DNA from: Akkermansia muciniphila | GTDB lineage: Bacteria > Verrucomicrobiota > Verrucomicrobiia > Verrucomicrobiales > Akkermansiaceae | DNA: 64,000 bases | Reading direction: 5' to 3' | NCBI GenBank assembly: GCA_945879075.1 | Contig: CAMCUY010000005.1 | Location: forward strand, 1-64,000 | In this document: piece after piece, positions 1,949 through 38,286 of the stretch | How positions within the stretch are numbered: the first letter of the stretch is position 1 | Layout of the letters: each line of letters opens with the position of its first letter | Notes under the pieces: model-generated | Databases searched by the model: none | Told to the model about the DNA's origin: nothing | Seen by the model: only the letters and a program-made list of their open reading frames with translations | Translations under genes and position numbers: made by a program

Positions 1949-4003
1949 TCAGAACTCGAAGGAGGTGCCGATATAGCAGTTGCGACCGTTGGCGGGATCG
2001 ATCCCGTCGTTGCGGACGCGGGCGAAATAGCTCTCGTCGAAGAGGTTGTTGATGCCGCCGATCAGGCGGACGTTGTCATGGATTTTGTATTCCGCGGTGA
2101 GGTCCCAGACCATGTAGGCGGGGACTTTGAAATTGGCGGTGTTGTTGTCGTTGGCGAAATGGTCGCCCAGGAAGGTGCCGCCGAAGGTGACTTTCAGTTT
2201 GTCCTGATAGTTGTAGTTCAGGCCGGTGCGGAGGATGTAATCCGGGGCGTATTGAGGCGTGTTGCCGTCTGCGTCGCCGCTGGTGAACTCTGCGTCCAGC
2301 AGGGTGGCGTTCACATACCAGTCCAGAGCTCCATAGCTGTCAGCTCCCGTGACTAATTCCAGCAGGTCGGTGCTGGCGGAAAGATCGATGCCTTTGTGAA
2401 TGGAATCGCCGACGTTGGCGGTGGTGTTGCCGAGCGTGCCGATCTGGTCCTTGAAGGAGAGCAGGAAAGCGCTAGCGTCAAGTGTCAACCAGTCCTGTGG
2501 ACGGGTGCGGTAACCGAGTTCGTATTCGAGCGCTTTTCCTTCCTCAAGATCGTCCGGAACATCGCTGAGAGCATCGGAAGGAACTGCTTCGGTGTATATC
2601 TTCGGGCGGTAGGACTGTGAGATGTTGCCATAAATGGAGGACCGCGCGTCGGTGGCGTATTCGGCTCCCAAGCCGCCGAGAAGGATGTGGTTTTCGTCAT
2701 CGTCCTTCGCCCCGGTGCCGAGTCTTTCGACATCCTGCCAGACGTTTTCCACGCGGAGTCCCGGCGTGATGAAGAATTTACCGAAGCTGAATTTGTTTTC
2801 CGCAAAGACCGGGAGATAAAACACCTGGCGCTCCGATTTCTTCACCGTCGGGGAGTTGGAAATGGAGTCGGTGCGCGGGGAGTCCACATGATAGATCTGC
2901 ACACCTGTCGTGAAGGTGTGCTGCGAATCCGAACCCCAGTTCACGCGATAGCGCGAGTCGATGCCAAGCGTGTCGAATTGCTGCTCTTCGGTCTTGAACG
3001 GCTTGTTTGGAGCGGGGGGCACGCCGAAGCCGCCGTCGTCCTGCCGGTAGCTGGAACGCCTGTAATCGACCCACCAGGCGCTGGTGGTGAAGAATGAATC
3101 GGGCGTTGGTTCGACTTCGTAGGTCAGCGAGACCGAATCGCGGTCGAGCGATAATTCATCGTTGAGGCGGGTGGCTTTGAGGCTGCCGGAGTTGAAATCG
3201 GCGATGGAGAGGCCGCCGGGTTCGCCGTGGTTTTCCTCGTAGGTGTCGGCGTTGAGTATGATTTTCCCGCCGTTATCGAGCGAGTAGAGGAGTTTGATCG
3301 CGGCGTTGTTGAGGTCGTAGTCGCTGTTGGCGGAGCGGAACCCGTCGCTCTCGCGGTGGTTGAAATAGAGGTAGTAGCCGAGTTTATCGACGGTGCCGTC
3401 CGCGGAGGAGAAGGTGGAGTAGAGATCGTCGCTGCCGATGATATGCTGGGTGCGGGCCGAAAACGGTTTGTCGGTGCGTGGGCGGTGGGTGATGTAATTG
3501 AGCGCGCCGCCGGGTTGCGGTCCGTGTTGGAGGGCGGCGCCGCCGTGCAGGAATTCGATCCGGTCCACGGTGTCGAGCGGCGGGGTGTAGTAGGCCTCCG
3601 GATAGCCGAATTGGTCGGCGTGAATCGGGATTCCGTCGCGCAGGACTTGGGTGAATTGGGCACGGTGCGGATTGAGCCCGCGGTAGCCGAGGCTCACCAG
3701 CGGCGAGGATTCTTCGGCGAGCAGCAGGCCGGGAGTCTGGGAAAGCGCTTGGCGGTAGTTGTTGCCAACAATCCGCGCCTGGGCATCCAGATCAATCACC
3801 GCGGTTTTTTTGCCAGCGAAGATCGCGGCCCCGACCACATCGGGAAGCCAGCCCTGCTGGTTCGTTTCATCGGCTTCCGACTCGGCGGTCACCACCATGG
3901 ATTCGAGCGTGGTCACCGCGTCCTGAGCCGTGGTCAGGCTGGCGTCGGAGAGGGTTGCCATCAGGCAGACGGCGGTGGAGCGGGCAATGGAGTTCTGTTT
4001 CAT
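1949..4003 (-). CDS. FecA-like TonB-dependent outer-membrane receptor
   Basis: I start this 684-residue protein at the ATG at 4003, not at the ORF-track start at 4171. From 4003 it begins MKQNSIARSTAVCLMA, a signal peptide, with an AAGAGAAA-like ribosome site upstream. A plug domain follows (about 55-165, with LGYRGLNPHRAQFTQVLRDG and GPQPGGALNYITHRP), then a 22-strand-type barrel ending in the aromatic outer-membrane signal YIGTSFEF. The plug resembles the FecA iron-dicitrate group. The substrate is inferred to be a ferric chelate from this resemblance and from the Fur-like palindrome just upstream. No N-terminal signalling domain for an anti-sigma partner is visible. Confidence 0.88.
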   Translation of the reverse strand: MKQNSIARSTAVCLMATLSDASLTTAQDAVTTLESMVVTAESEADETNQQGWLPDVVGAAIFAGKKTAVIDLDAQARIVGNNYRQALSQTPGLLLAEESSPLVSLGYRGLNPHRAQFTQVLRDGIPIHADQFGYPEAYYTPPLDTVDRIEFLHGGAALQHGPQPGGALNYITHRPRTDKPFSARTQHIIGSDDLYSTFSSADGTVDKLGYYLYFNHRESDGFRSANSDYDLNNAAIKLLYSLDNGGKIILNADTYEENHGEPGGLSIADFNSGSLKATRLNDELSLDRDSVSLTYEVEPTPDSFFTTSAWWVDYRRSSYRQDDGGFGVPPAPNKPFKTEEQQFDTLGIDSRYRVNWGSDSQHTFTTGVQIYHVDSPRTDSISNSPTVKKSERQVFYLPVFAENKFSFGKFFITPGLRVENVWQDVERLGTGAKDDDENHILLGGLGAEYATDARSSIYGNISQSYRPKIYTEAVPSDALSDVPDDLEEGKALEYELGYRTRPQDWLTLDASAFLLSFKDQIGTLGNTTANVGDSIHKGIDLSASTDLLELVTGADSYGALDWYVNATLLDAEFTSGDADGNTPQYAPDYILRTGLNYNYQDKLKVTFGGTFLGDHFANDNNTANFKVPAYMVWDLTAEYKIHDNVRLIGGINNLFDESYFARVRNDGIDPANGRNCYIGTSFEF

Positions 4004-30831: not shown

Positions 30832-31882
30832 GCTTTCGGCCATGCGCCGGTCTCGTTTCCAGGTAGCGCCAGCACAGCCAAGCCAGCCCCCAGGAGGTCA
30901 GACCGAAGACTCCGAGGCGGAGGATTTGCCAATATCCGACGAAGAACGGCCCCCACAGCCACGGCAGCGCGAAGCCGAGAAACAACGGCACCGGCGTGTG
31001 AAACAGATAGAGCCCGAAGCTCAAGCGCCCGACGTGCTGCGCCGCCGGATGATCGAGAATTTTTCCAAGCCACCCGCCGAAGCCGGCCAAGGTGGATGAA
31101 ATGAGCCCCGCGAAAACCACCGAGACGAGTGTTTGCTGGAAGTAGCAAAGGCCACCGATGGGCCTGCCCATCTCATTGAAAACGTAGAGCGTGATGTATC
31201 CTGTGAACGCGAGTGCCGCTGCTAGAGTCAGCCTCCCGTCGCCGACCTTCATCCCACGCTCGATGGCCAGCGCGAGCAAGGCGCCCACGCCGAAATAATC
31301 CAGCGCCGTGGGAGTGATCGCCTGGCTGTGATGGATTTCAGGAAACCACTTTTCCAGAATCATCCGTGAAATGGGGGCCAGCGCGACGCAAAGCCCGAAC
31401 ACCCCCGCAAGGAGTTTGCGCGGCGTGAGGAAAACCACCAGCGGCCACACCAGATAGAACTGCACTTGGAGCGCCAGCGTCCAGTAGTGCGCCGTCCCGG
31501 ACGGCCAGCCCTCCATGAACGCCATATGGAAATTCGACCAATGCCCGAAGTAAGCCGGCCAATGCTGCCGGATGTCCGAAGCTCCCACGAGGATCGCGAA
31601 AAGCATCGCCGCGTAGCACGGCACCAGAATGCGCGCCATCCGCCGTTTCTGGAAATCCAGGTAAGCCTTGATGCGCCATTTCCCTCCGGCCTCCTCGCAA
31701 GCCGCCCGCTCGCGCAACAAGATCCGCGTGATCAGGAAGCCGGTCAGAGTCAGGAAAAAGAACAGCCCGATCTCAAACGGGAAATGCCCGCGCCATTCCG
31801 CCGGCGCCCAGTGAAGCCACATCACGCCAAGCACCGCGAAAGCCCGCCATCCGTCTAACTGGTAATTTCGAATCGCCGTCAA
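30785..31882 (-). CDS. Acyltransferase 3 family membrane protein (OafA/YrhL type)
   Basis: The 365-residue integral membrane protein starts YQLDGWRAFAVLGVMWLHW, the classic acyltransferase 3 opening with its catalytic-region histidine. About ten hydrophobic helices follow. The family moves acetyl or other acyl groups onto cell-surface sugars. The last residues (VPAVSAERGASESD) are encoded by a palindromic repeat, so the natural C-terminus was probably replaced by the repeat. It overlaps the upstream GH-GT gene by four bases (ATGA), suggesting joint work on a surface glycan. Confidence 0.87.
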   Translation of the reverse strand: MTAIRNYQLDGWRAFAVLGVMWLHWAPAEWRGHFPFEIGLFFFLTLTGFLITRILLRERAACEEAGGKWRIKAYLDFQKRRMARILVPCYAAMLFAILVGASDIRQHWPAYFGHWSNFHMAFMEGWPSGTAHYWTLALQVQFYLVWPLVVFLTPRKLLAGVFGLCVALAPISRMILEKWFPEIHHSQAITPTALDYFGVGALLALAIERGMKVGDGRLTLAAALAFTGYITLYVFNEMGRPIGGLCYFQQTLVSVVFAGLISSTLAGFGGWLGKILDHPAAQHVGRLSFGLYLFHTPVPLFLGFALPWLWGPFFVGYWQILRLGVFGLTSWGLAWLCWRYLETRPAHGRKRVPAVSAERGASESD

Positions 31883-34014
31883 ATCGACTGCCAGCTTTCA
31901 CGGCGGCTGCCCATCGAGCAAGGCCAATGGGCAAGGTCCTGGGCCCCGAGGATCCGGGCGATCCGGGCCGGGTCTGAGCCCCACACGCGGACGAGCGTGC
32001 GGTTACCGATTCCGCGGCCGCGTTCGGTGGCCATGAGCACACGGGTGCCGGCTTTTTCGACGTCCCAGGCGTCCGTTTCGCCCGCGGCATTCCAGCCTTG
32101 GCGGAGCAGGATCCCGAGGAAATGGTCGCGGTCTTCGCCTTCCGGGGAGTGGATCGCGAACTCTTCGGCTTGCCCGGGCACTTGGGCTTTCCTCGGCGAT
32201 TCCGGGCGAAGGAAAATCGTCCGGTTTCGCGCCCAGGCGCGGATCCGGGGTTGGAGGAATTTCACGGCTCGGAGCGCGAACCGGGATTGCAGGGAGTCGA
32301 AATTTTCCGCCAAGCCACGCAGCGGCGGCATCCGGTTGGTGATCGCCTGATAGCCGGCGTCGCCCATCGGGCCGTGATAGATGATAGAGTCGGACATCAC
32401 GCGGACAGGTCCGCCGCCATAGATGAAGCCGTGCCATCTCGCGTCGCCACGCTTCGAGAAGCGGGCGGGGTGTTTGGCTAACAGCAAGCGCTCGGCGCGG
32501 CCGTAGCCGAGTTGCTGGCCGAGGAATTTCGAGATCGACGGCCGTCGCCAGTGCCAGACGAAGGCACCGGGGACGAAGCCGAGGCGGAAGCCGGCGTCCC
32601 GCAGCCGCCAGCAGAAATCCACGTCGTCGCCCGCTGTGTGGAACTGCGGATCAAAGCCGCCGACGGTGTCGAACGCGGCCCGCGTCACGGCCAGGTTGCA
32701 TCCCGGCAGGTGCTCGGCCTCGTCGTCGTCGAGCATGACGTGGCTCGGTGCGCCGGGCGCGGCGCAGACAACCGCTTCCTCCCAGGTCTTCGGTTTCGGC
32801 GGTAAATTTGGTCCGCCCGCGGCGACGAATCGGCCCTCTTGAAATGTCCGCCGCAGTCTTGCGATCCATTCCCGGTCGGGCTCGCAATCGTCGTCGGTGA
32901 ACGCCAGCACCTCGCCTTTCGCAACCGCCGCGCCGTTGTTGCGGGCGTTGCTCAAGCCGCAGGGATCCAGCCGCACAAGCCGGGTCCACGGGAAATTTTT
33001 CTCCACGAAATCGGCGCTGCCGTCGGTCGAACCGTCATCCACGACGATCGTCTCGAAGCCGCCGTCGTCCATGTCGCGGATCGCTCTGAGGCAGGTGCCG
33101 ATACGGTCGCGGCCGTTTCGCGTGCAGACGATGACGCTGAAGAAATGAAAGTTAGATTTGAAATCTGAAATCTGAAATTTGAGATTCAAGAGCGCGGGTT
33201 TTGCATTGCCAGCGCGGTCGGTCAGGCCGAAGTCCCAGTCCAGCACCTCGGTGCCGACCCACCAGCGGTCGCTCCAGGCGTAAATGGTCATGCCGGCGGT
33301 CTCCAAATCGAGCGCGGCTTGGCTGGCCCAGCGGAGGATTTCCGCCTGCCGCTCCAAGCCATTGCGCCGCGAATCGACGCCGAATTCCGAGATCACCAGC
33401 GGCCGGTCGCCCGCGATGTGGTGCAGTCGCTTGAGGTAGCCGCGGAACTCCGGCTCGTTTTCCAGATAGATGTTGAAGGCGGTGAAATCGGCGTTTTCCG
33501 GTTCCAGATATTCGGTGCTGGGGTAGTTTGCGTAGGCGAATAACAGGCCGGGCGCGAGCTCCTTACCGAGGGCGATGAGATCTTCAAGCACGCGCCGCAC
33601 TTTGAGCGGGCCCATCCAGCGGGCCAGGTCGGCGGGAATCTCGTTGCCGATGTAAACGCCCGCCAGCGCCGGGTGGTCGGCGGTTTCCTTCAAGCCGTTG
33701 ACCAGCGAGACCGCCGCCGCTGAGTAAAGTCCGGGACGCTGGAAAAAATCCGCGCTCTGGCCCCATTCGAGCCCGCCGAAAACTTTCAAGCCGTGCTCCG
33801 CGGCGGCGTCCAGCAGGATCGCGGGTGGTATTTCATAAAGCCGGATCGCGTTGAACCCCGCCGCCGCCATTTGCGAGAAATCCGCCGCGAAGGACCTCGG
33901 CCAACCGCCGGGAAATGGCCCGTAAGTGACCGCGTTCATCCGCACGCGCTGGTTCCCGGCACGGAAAAATTTTCCGTCCGTCTGCCATCGTTGCGGGTCA
34001 TCTCCGTCTGCCAC
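31879..34014 (-). CDS. Fusion of a glycoside-hydrolase-like barrel and a family 2 glycosyltransferase
   Basis: The 711-residue protein starts at a GTG (34014). Residues 1-275 look like a glycoside hydrolase TIM barrel: GPFPGGWPRSFAADFSQMAAAGFNAIRLYE, then YIGNEI with the acid/base glutamate (E125) and LVISEFGVDS with the nucleophile glutamate (E210). Residues 292-560 are a GT2 glycosyltransferase with SVIVCTRNGRDRIGTCLRAI, VVDDGSTDGS, FTDDDCEPD and HTAGDDVDFCWRLRDAG. The join (LNLKFQISDFKSNFHF) is encoded by an AT-rich repeat. It precedes an acyltransferase gene, suggesting surface glycan synthesis. Confidence 0.8.
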   Translation of the reverse strand: MADGDDPQRWQTDGKFFRAGNQRVRMNAVTYGPFPGGWPRSFAADFSQMAAAGFNAIRLYEIPPAILLDAAAEHGLKVFGGLEWGQSADFFQRPGLYSAAAVSLVNGLKETADHPALAGVYIGNEIPADLARWMGPLKVRRVLEDLIALGKELAPGLLFAYANYPSTEYLEPENADFTAFNIYLENEPEFRGYLKRLHHIAGDRPLVISEFGVDSRRNGLERQAEILRWASQAALDLETAGMTIYAWSDRWWVGTEVLDWDFGLTDRAGNAKPALLNLKFQISDFKSNFHFFSVIVCTRNGRDRIGTCLRAIRDMDDGGFETIVVDDGSTDGSADFVEKNFPWTRLVRLDPCGLSNARNNGAAVAKGEVLAFTDDDCEPDREWIARLRRTFQEGRFVAAGGPNLPPKPKTWEEAVVCAAPGAPSHVMLDDDEAEHLPGCNLAVTRAAFDTVGGFDPQFHTAGDDVDFCWRLRDAGFRLGFVPGAFVWHWRRPSISKFLGQQLGYGRAERLLLAKHPARFSKRGDARWHGFIYGGGPVRVMSDSIIYHGPMGDAGYQAITNRMPPLRGLAENFDSLQSRFALRAVKFLQPRIRAWARNRTIFLRPESPRKAQVPGQAEEFAIHSPEGEDRDHFLGILLRQGWNAAGETDAWDVEKAGTRVLMATERGRGIGNRTLVRVWGSDPARIARILGAQDLAHWPCSMGSRRESWQSI
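33148..33190. repeat. AT-rich repeat (TTTGAAATCTGAAA units) in the fusion-gene linker
   Basis: GATTTGAAATCTGAAATCTG and its continuation are tandem copies of a unit of about 8 bases, in strong contrast to the GC-rich gene around it. On the minus strand it encodes the interdomain linker of the hydrolase-glycosyltransferase fusion. The related sequence in pbpC is at 14311-14340. Confidence 0.7.
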
Positions 34015-36112: not shown

Positions 36113-36352
36113 TCACCCGAGCCGACAGCTGCGGCCTCTATCATTCAGCGCGCCGCAGATCGGGCAATCGACGGTTTTCGCGTGGCTGGTTTGCTCGAAC
36201 GCGTGCAGGCAGAGCCGGCAAATGACACGGTTCGCGAGCGAGCGCTTTTCCGCCCGCGCGTGCAAGGTGCGCGAGACCACCGCGAGAAACGGCACCAGCG
36301 CGAAGGTGCCGACCAGCACGAAGAGCACGAAATCAGCGAGCGTCAGGTCCAT
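36113..36352 (-). CDS. Membrane-anchored zinc-ribbon protein
   Basis: From the ATG at 36352 the 79-residue protein has one hydrophobic helix (DFVLFVLVGTFALVPFLAVVS) followed by a four-cysteine zinc ribbon (CRLCLHAF and CPICGALNDRG). I do not recognise a named family. Its start overlaps the stop of the 265-residue gene upstream by 20 bases, so it is the last gene of the exbB/exbD operon. The track start at 36511 runs inside that gene and is rejected. Confidence 0.6.
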   Translation of the reverse strand: MDLTLADFVLFVLVGTFALVPFLAVVSRTLHARAEKRSLANRVICRLCLHAFEQTSHAKTVDCPICGALNDRGRSCRLG

Positions 36353-37130
36353 CGGCGACGGGTTGGTTGGTGAAGCCGATGCCCACGGCGATCCAGCGGA
36401 AGGACGCTTTGAACTCCGGCTTGAAATGGATTTTATGCAGCCAAGCCTCCAGCTCCGGAGCCCCCGCCTCGCCACCTTTTTCGAGCGAAACGCACTCTGC
36501 CACGCCGCCATCGGGATTCAAACGCACGAGAAAGCGCCAGGACGCCGAGGACATCACGCCATCCACTGCGGCTTCAAACAGCGGGAGAACCGCAGGCAAC
36601 GTCGCGGCGGAAATCCCGGAAAGCGGATAAAGCAGGGGCGCGAGCTTCAACTTGGCGGACTCCGGCGGGTGCGCGGAAGGCGGGGTGCGCTTCGGGAAAA
36701 ACGACTGCCCCCTGGCCGCCAGCTCCACGCCCTGAACCCAATTTCCCGACGGCAAATCCGCCAGAGCGGGCACATAAGGCCGCTGCTGAAACCGGACGGC
36801 ATCCAGCGCGGCGTTTTCCAAGGCGGCCATGCCTTCCCACTGCGACGGCTCGAAGCGCGAAGGAAACGGCCCGCCCTCCCGCGCCCGCAGGGTCAGCGCC
36901 CGTCCTTCGGCATCGTTGCGCAGATGAATCACCGACGCCTTACGCGGGGCGGATTTCTCCATGGCCGTCACCCGGATCCGAACCGACGTGATCGAAAATG
37001 CGAATGCTGCGCCCACGAAAACCAGGGCGAATAACTTCGGCAGCAGCGGCGTCTTGCTCGCGCTCCAGCGAAACACCCACTCCGGAGTGCCCGCCAACTT
37101 GTGCGGTTTGACCCTGCCGTCCGCCATCAT
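36333..37130 (-). CDS. Membrane-anchored protein of the second ExbB/ExbD operon, possible TonB substitute
   Basis: The 265-residue protein has a cytoplasmic N-terminus (MMADGRVKPHKLAG), one membrane helix near residues 33-52 (LFALVFVGAAFAFSITSV) and a periplasmic remainder. It overlaps exbD by four bases. The C-terminal 80 residues include SWRFLVRLNPDGGVAECVSL, which recalls the FTVDxxGxV strand of TonB C-terminal domains. The helix-then-periplasm layout is as in TonB, but there is no proline-rich spacer. A TonB-like energy transducer is a guess from these features and its neighbours. Confidence 0.6.
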   Translation of the reverse strand: MMADGRVKPHKLAGTPEWVFRWSASKTPLLPKLFALVFVGAAFAFSITSVRIRVTAMEKSAPRKASVIHLRNDAEGRALTLRAREGGPFPSRFEPSQWEGMAALENAALDAVRFQQRPYVPALADLPSGNWVQGVELAARGQSFFPKRTPPSAHPPESAKLKLAPLLYPLSGISAATLPAVLPLFEAAVDGVMSSASWRFLVRLNPDGGVAECVSLEKGGEAGAPELEAWLHKIHFKPEFKASFRWIAVGIGFTNQPVADGPDAR

Positions 37131-37579
37131 TCAGCCGCTTCTTTCGAACTTGGAACCACGGCGGCAGGCGGGTTCTTCCCGACCAGCGCCAAGCGAAACC
37201 CCTTGTCCAGCACCAGCTCCGTGACCTCGCGCTCGACTCCGACCGGCGTGCCCGTGTCGGTCTGAAGCAGCACGATCGACTTCGTCGGCGCGCCGTCCGC
37301 CCGCAACTTGTCGAGCCGCCCGGCAAGCTCCTCCAGTGTCACCGCGTCCCGCCCGAAATGAATCCGCAGTCCCGGTTCGCCCGGACCCAGCGTGACCACG
37401 ATCGAATCCTGGTAGCGCTCCATTTGAAACCGCGATGGCGTCAATTCCACCGCCACGCCCGATTGCAAAACCAGCGACGGCCCGAGCAGGAAAAACAACT
37501 GCACCAGCGCGAAAATATTGAGAATCGGCACCGCGTGCAGAAATCCCGGGCGCTCCGGCAGGGTCATTTCCAATTTCAT
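37127..37579 (-). CDS. ExbD/TolR-family protein, second system
   Basis: The 150-residue protein has one N-terminal membrane helix (VPILNIFALVQLFFLLGPSLVL, about 17-38) and a periplasmic domain. It lacks the canonical aspartate in the helix (asparagine in PILNIF), so if it is ExbD-like its proton pathway is altered. Overlaps of four bases with both neighbours show tight coupling. It is clearly diverged from the ExbD at 90-515 and probably serves a different process. Confidence 0.75.
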   Translation of the reverse strand: MKLEMTLPERPGFLHAVPILNIFALVQLFFLLGPSLVLQSGVAVELTPSRFQMERYQDSIVVTLGPGEPGLRIHFGRDAVTLEELAGRLDKLRADGAPTKSIVLLQTDTGTPVGVEREVTELVLDKGFRLALVGKNPPAAVVPSSKEAAE

Positions 37580-38286
37580 TTGGCGGGTTCCCGTTTGGCC
37601 TTCAGCGGCTTTTTCCCGGCCGTCACCTCGCCGCGGAACGGAGCGAATTCCTCCTCCTCCCGCGCGTCCGCGATGAGGTTGACCATTTCAATCCCCGCCC
37701 GCTCCAAGCGGTGCACCAGCCGTTTCGCCCGGCCGAGGAAATAGAGGTAAAACAAATACAGCGGGATCGCCACCGTCAGCCCCATCACCGAGGTGATCAA
37801 CGCGGTGAACACCCCCGCCGAGAGCTCCGCGGGGCCGGTGAAGCCGCCTTGCTCGCTGACATTTTGAAAGGTTTCGAGCATTCCCAACAAGGTCCCGAGC
37901 ATCCCGACCAAGGGTGCGAGCAAAGACACACCGAGGATCGCCCTGATGTTTTTCTCAATCCGCGGCACTTCCAGCTGGCCCGCTTCTTGCACCACGTCCC
38001 GCAAATCCGCACGCGGTAAATAATACCGCAGCAGCGCTGCATGCGCCACCCGCGCCACCGGCCCCGGCGCCCGCGCCGCCTCGTGCAGCGCCTCCGCGAA
38101 CGCCCGCCGCCGGATGTGGTGCGATAAGCCGACCAGCAAATCCCCGACGTTGATCCGCGCCCGGTGGAAGAAAAACAAACGCTCCACCACGCACACCGCG
38201 CCGATGAATGCCAGACCCAGCAGCACCCACACCAGCGGGCCGCCCTGCTCGATCAACCCGGAAGGTTCCATCAATCCTAAAATCAT
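37576..38286 (-). CDS. ExbB/TolQ/MotA-family protein, second system
   Basis: The 236-residue protein carries three helices (about 18-38, 115-140, 160-183). The family core SLLAPLVGMLGTLLGMLETF and the following ELSAGVFTALITSVMGLTVAIPLYLFY match the MotA/TolQ/ExbB channel. Compared with the first exbB it has a longer charged C-terminal tail (EEEEFAPFRGEVTAGKKPLKAKREP). It is first in a four-gene operon (exbB-like, exbD-like, 265-residue protein, zinc ribbon), divergent from pyrE. Confidence 0.85.
   Translation of the reverse strand: MILGLMEPSGLIEQGGPLVWVLLGLAFIGAVCVVERLFFFHRARINVGDLLVGLSHHIRRRAFAEALHEAARAPGPVARVAHAALLRYYLPRADLRDVVQEAGQLEVPRIEKNIRAILGVSLLAPLVGMLGTLLGMLETFQNVSEQGGFTGPAELSAGVFTALITSVMGLTVAIPLYLFYLYFLGRAKRLVHRLERAGIEMVNLIADAREEEEFAPFRGEVTAGKKPLKAKREPAK

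Follow-up and report, generated by a model that had tools for sequence, protein, structure and literature searches.

A conserved operon of four genes, encoding ExbB-like, ExbD-like, TonB-like and membrane zinc-ribbon proteins, has been identified in the window (the whole analyzed stretch of DNA, 64,000 nt) and in many other genomes of Verrucomicrobiota, and the motor position of its ExbD helix is held by Asp in some lineages and by Asn in others, including the window. In our estimate, there is about an even chance that the operon encodes a trans-envelope complex of the Ton/Tol type, which has been repeatedly freed of proton coupling and is now mainly a tether. The genes and their main features are listed in Table 1.

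Table 1. Genes and features of the four-gene operon, with positions in the window.
Feature	Position	Strand	Basis
exbB-like gene, 236 aa, three-helix channel protein of the MotA/TolQ/ExbB type	37576..38286	minus	Pfam, homolog alignment
exbD-like gene, 150 aa, one helix and periplasmic domain	37127..37579	minus	Pfam, alignment
codon AAT of ExbD Asn21, the residue aligned with E. coli ExbD Asp25	37517..37519	minus	
TonB-like gene, 265 aa; F-x-W in the short cytoplasmic N-terminus, then one helix and a periplasmic portion	36333..37130	minus	
predicted transmembrane helix of the TonB-like protein, residues 29-49	36984..37046	minus	
C-terminal TonB/TolA-III-like domain of the TonB-like protein, residues 160-257	36360..36653	minus	
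membrane zinc-ribbon gene, 79 aa; a single helix, a basic region and a Cys4 ribbon, in this order	36113..36352	minus	
CRLC...CPIC of the zinc-ribbon gene, four cysteines	36155..36220	minus	alignment

The original prediction had described a diverged exbB/exbD pair and a membrane zinc-ribbon protein, and both descriptions hold. The exbB product matches the MotA_ExbB family (PF01618; 83.1 bits at a cut-off of 22.9, E 1.9e-23), the exbD product is a marginal member of the ExbD/TolR family (PF02472; 26.4 bits at a cut-off of 25.4), and the exbB product does not reach the NCBIfam equivalog cut-offs for either tolQ (53.6 of 221 bits) or exbB (30.9 of 206.2 bits). For the TonB-like and zinc-ribbon proteins, no Pfam family is found over cut-off. 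The four cysteines of the zinc ribbon are invariant in all 29 aligned sequences of the window's genus, and the ribbon is probably located in the cytoplasm. The genes had also been said to be coupled by 4-base overlaps; this is true of the exbB/exbD and exbD/TonB-like junctions (ATGA in both cases), but not of the last one, where the overlap is 20 bases, as the start of the zinc-ribbon gene kept in homologs (position 36352, MDLTL...) falls within the 3' end of the TonB-like gene. Overlaps of 4, 4 and 20 bases are also the commonest among the 60 named loci considered below (57 of 60, 46 of 59, and 48 of 56, respectively). The dN/dS ratios, calculated against three genomes of the genus, are about 0.04-0.07 for exbB, 0.13-0.15 for exbD and 0.21-0.33 for the TonB-like and zinc-ribbon genes, that is, well below 1 in all four, and hence all four genes are under purifying selection.

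The order of genes, proposed as a check of the original prediction, is kept in every uncut locus of two sets: in 29 of the 30 loci fetched from the window's genus, the remaining one being cut by the contig end, and in all uncut loci among 60 named records from Akkermansiaceae (Luteolibacter, Haloferula, Rubritalea, and many MAGs). One alignment row (L126), which had wrong coordinates, was left out of the later analysis. The order is also present in Akkermansia, including the 2,664,102-base genome taken as A. muciniphila ATCC BAA-835, in other families of the same class (f8, f10, f11, f15, f19, f21), and, outside the class, in a single family (f27). At the f39 and f43 loci exbB, exbD and the TonB-like gene are found in order and the zinc ribbon is not recognized, and in f85 exbB, exbD and the zinc ribbon are in order, with the TonB-like gene missed by the local model. 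Profile searches yield the TonB-like protein in 34 of 37 genomes of the window's genus and, with a wider profile, in 237 of 332 Verrucomicrobiales genomes from 39 of 44 genera, normally in one copy per genome; at the level of the phylum Verrucomicrobiota it is found by a wider profile in 90 of 384 genomes, some of the weak matches spanning the C-terminal domain alone and possibly representing other TonBs. Narrow profiles had suggested absence outside close relatives, which was rejected, as the wider profiles found the TonB-like protein there. Still, some Akkermansia and many more of the sampled Verrucomicrobiota genomes yielded no such system. The operon is no local oddity, its range extending over much of the phylum.

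A fifth conserved gene was sought around the operon and none was found, the best neighbor family (fabF-like) being present in 15 of 69 loci. This gene, encoding a beta-ketoacyl synthase, immediately follows the operon (e.g., L081:5502-6788), and lepA downstream or pyrE upstream are each seen in approximately 8 of the 69 loci. The copy at the L254 locus of a 1.6 Mb genome (G573) has diverged strongly; its exbD and TonB-like gene align in part only, perhaps due to decay.

In several genomes the operon is split. The exbB-exbD pair is located apart from the TonB-like gene in four genomes of f3 (in one of which, G058, the TonB-like gene is known from the order-wide profile search only) and in G685 (8.22 Mb, probably Verrucomicrobium spinosum), and in one more genome, G039, exbD, the TonB-like gene and the zinc ribbon are together, with exbB not adjoining. 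Each of the four f3 genomes and G685 retains one exbB-exbD pair of the operon type elsewhere, with Asn in ExbD. As the pair is retained, the link between exbBD and the TonB-like gene is likely functional and not only positional. Such splits might also be expected if ExbD and ExbB of the operon mixed with canonical subunits, so that Asn-type ExbD would damp or regulate the canonical motors, and these would drive the TonB-like protein; it agrees with this possibility that the TonB-like proteins of f3 keep the motor-binding His while their ExbD has Asn. We nevertheless regard subunit mixing as quite improbable, since pairing with the own type of exbBD is strict even in split genomes and translational coupling elsewhere is tight.

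The third protein had been described as a one-helix protein with a possible TonB-like C-terminus, and comparison of its predicted structure with TonB had been proposed, an unrelated fold being the outcome that would speak against it. The fold predicted for the C-terminal domain is of the TonB/TolA type. The AF2 model of the whole protein has pLDDT of 78, exceeding 90 in most of the C-terminal domain, and that of the C-terminal domain alone, 87. The TonB, FusB and TolA-III domains lead the lists of Foldseek matches in PDB for both models; the top 13 matches are all TonB/TolA/FusB domains (best E 0.016), and the vWA fold is absent among the best matches. In addition, hhalign against canonical TonB_C termini from genomes of the order yields E 3.4e-6 at a probability of 88%, the match being weaker with narrower alignments, compared to E 0.18 in the control with ExbD. 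The NCBIfam model TIGR01352 (tonB_Cterm) matches the A. muciniphila TonB-like protein under cut-off (E 0.0022), and Pfam TonB_C matches the Akkermansia genes weakly, also below cut-off; single-sequence scans of the window's protein with Pfam and NCBIfam yield no family and no TonB_C match. Since the Foldseek E values exceed 0.001 and there is no Pfam TonB_C call, the link to TonB follows from the agreement of several weak tests, and the model and the profile comparisons together support a TonB/TolA-type C-terminal domain.

The motor residues of the system vary between loci. Residue 21 of the window's ExbD, aligned with Asp25 of E. coli ExbD, is Asn and not the proton-carrying Asp. The Asn had been noted in the original prediction; it is real (codon AAT) but does not mark the system, Asp being present in about half of the owners. 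Among 102 distinct loci at the level of the order, this position is occupied by Asn in 54 and by Asp in 48, and by no other residue, and all 49 entries for paralogous ExbD from the same genomes (several genes having been fetched twice) have Asp. A tree of ExbB and ExbD, constructed with the Asp/Asn column left out, requires approximately 13 changes at this position, at least six of them forced on well-supported branches. Outside the order, Thr, Ala and Gly are found at this position as well.

The ExbB Glu and the TonB His have mostly been lost as well. The place of E. coli ExbB Glu176, in TM3, is occupied by Thr in the window, and Glu is kept in 10 of 104 distinct loci, always together with Asp in ExbD. 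The motor-binding His of the TonB/TolA SHLS motif is missing from the helix of the window's TonB-like protein; with the column dependent on the alignment of one short helix, f2, f3 and several families at the class level have this His, and the window's family and f4 do not. The pore threonines of ExbB (E. coli T148 and T181) are kept in the window, and Thr is found at these positions in 118 and 100 of 122 ExbB rows, respectively. His, Asp and Glu are all present in some loci, and in most loci one or more of them have been lost. A review describes the ExbD(D25N) and TonB(H20A) mutants of E. coli as inactive (PMC11658791); in the window's operon, the D25N change is present naturally and the equivalent of TonB His20 is missing.

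One could suppose that the complex is still an ion-driven motor, with the ion path formed by other groups, such as the acid close to the TM2 end (ExbB position 138), or with Asn partly deamidated to Asp. The conserved pore threonines and the strict restriction to Asp or Asn within the order would fit such a motor, and the acid (alignment column 133) is Asp or Glu in 47 of 54 loci with Asn. However, it is also present in 37 of 48 loci with Asp and missing in seven with Asn, and therefore a shift of the acid to TM2 as compensation for Asn was rejected. A search across the four proteins for a column covarying with the Asp/Asn position yielded none that is clear, at low power, given only six well-supported independent pairs, and Thr, Ala or Gly outside the order likewise argue against ion transfer. 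We consider a working ion-driven motor unlikely.

We prefer a tether, in which the operon would encode one complex of the Ton/Tol kind, reaching from the inner to the outer membrane. The pore of an ExbB ring would house the ExbD helices. Anchored beside ExbBD, the TonB-like protein would extend through the periplasm, its TonB/TolA-type domain contacting a partner in the outer membrane or peptidoglycan, and the zinc-ribbon protein may belong to the base of the complex as a subunit or regulate it. Both the formation of a complex by the four proteins and its stoichiometry are proposed here by analogy only. In the window's organism, the complex would depart from the usual use of the proton-motive force and act as a passive tether or scaffold. 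As only Asp and Asn are seen at the ExbD position within the order, its side chain probably still hydrogen-bonds within the pore of ExbB; the requirement within the order would then be for a hydrogen bond to the threonine ring of ExbB, and not for carrying protons. Since His, Asp and Glu still co-occur in some lineages, the ancestor of the complex was probably an ordinary proton motor, whose coupling would have been relaxed or lost in several lineages with the architecture retained. Against the tether it can be said that Asp is kept in half of the owners, where the complex may be an active motor, and that a single operon is unlikely to serve two unrelated purposes. More tentatively, the system may be described as a member of the MotAB/TolQR/ExbBD superfamily of rotary motors that on many independent occasions has changed from a proton-driven machine to an unpowered complex across the envelope, with the zinc ribbon as one of its subunits, and that is near-core and single-copy in many Verrucomicrobiota.

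The closest described systems share some of these features. As in ExbB-ExbD-TonB of E. coli, there are homologs of ExbB and ExbD, a one-helix protein with the TonB-like C-terminal fold, and the pore Thr. In contrast to it, the places of ExbD Asp25, ExbB Glu176 and TonB His20 are not kept, the order of four genes is fixed, with the zinc ribbon as the fourth, no receptor is present, and the Pfam TonB_C match is sub-threshold. By its ExbBD and TonB-like composition the operon might be an ordinary second Ton system, responsible for nutrient uptake via TonB-dependent receptors, and, as 29 of the 30 genomes examined encode receptors with plug domains, a lack of targets does not argue against this role. 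Nevertheless, canonical TonB/ExbD sets are present in the same genomes, the remaining genome (G609) carries the operon with no plug match, no receptor is linked to the operon, and Asp25 and His20 are missing in the window; a second Ton system thus seems very improbable. In the window, ExbD, a TonB C-terminus and a plug domain of a TonB-dependent receptor are found close together at 108-473, 1221-1403 and 3509-3793 (minus strand), which is the canonical receptor-linked set mentioned in the original prediction. Another ORF of the window, 711 residues at 31879-34014 (minus strand), appears by eye to combine a glycoside-hydrolase-like part with a following family-2-type glycosyltransferase.

As in TolQ-TolR-TolA, the transducer gene comes after the motor pair within a single operon, the system is single-copy, and the fold is TolA-III-like. 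The differences are the absence of the long helical domain II, the Asp that is not kept, the zinc ribbon, and, compared to Tol-Pal, the absence of attached tolB or pal genes. Of 30 genomes, 28 yield no TolB_N match above the cut-off, and in the other two the match is within ORFs longer than TolB. Given this, a Tol-like role in the envelope is attractive, though not proven, and the operon might be the phylum's replacement of TolQRA, serving outer-membrane constriction and stability at division with a TolB-independent partner; the single copy, the lack of an attached receptor gene and of conserved neighbors, and TolA-III among the fold matches agree with it. On the other hand, no such operon was found in some Akkermansia or in many more genomes across the phylum, and the function of Tol in E. 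coli requires the Asp of TolR. We consider this replacement rather unlikely.

Force transducers of the vWA type have been described beside tolQR-like genes in PVC bacteria, including Verrucomicrobia, in a published survey of periplasmic force transducers (PMC12204202). Like the operon studied here, these are uncharacterized operons of the TolQR-like type with a one-helix transducer from Verrucomicrobia. They have the vWA C-terminal domain, a TPR gene, paired tolR, and His or Asp motor residues kept, whereas the C-terminus here is TonB/TolA-like and the extra gene encodes the zinc ribbon. In the passages of the survey consulted, neither a system combining a TonB-like domain with a zinc ribbon nor one without Asp is described. 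Two adjacent exbD genes, resembling the paired tolR layout of the vWA systems, are found in the window's genome (G000:C4:31522-32377), and a similar pair, in the genome taken as A. muciniphila (G170:C1:647290-648218). No prior description of the four-gene system was found in the open-licence literature, in agreement with the statement of the original prediction that no system of this shape was known. The operon genes are not mentioned in the main text of the relevant paper on essentiality in V. spinosum.

To our knowledge, the helix Asp of ExbD, TolR and MotB has been held indispensable. The natural family with Asp and Asn alternating in an otherwise conserved operon provides ready-made pairs for the roles of this position beyond proton carriage. 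The operon represents an envelope system, conserved and apparently undescribed, in A. muciniphila and probably also in Verrucomicrobium spinosum, and for the latter species transposon and targeted mutagenesis have been published (PMC12283558).
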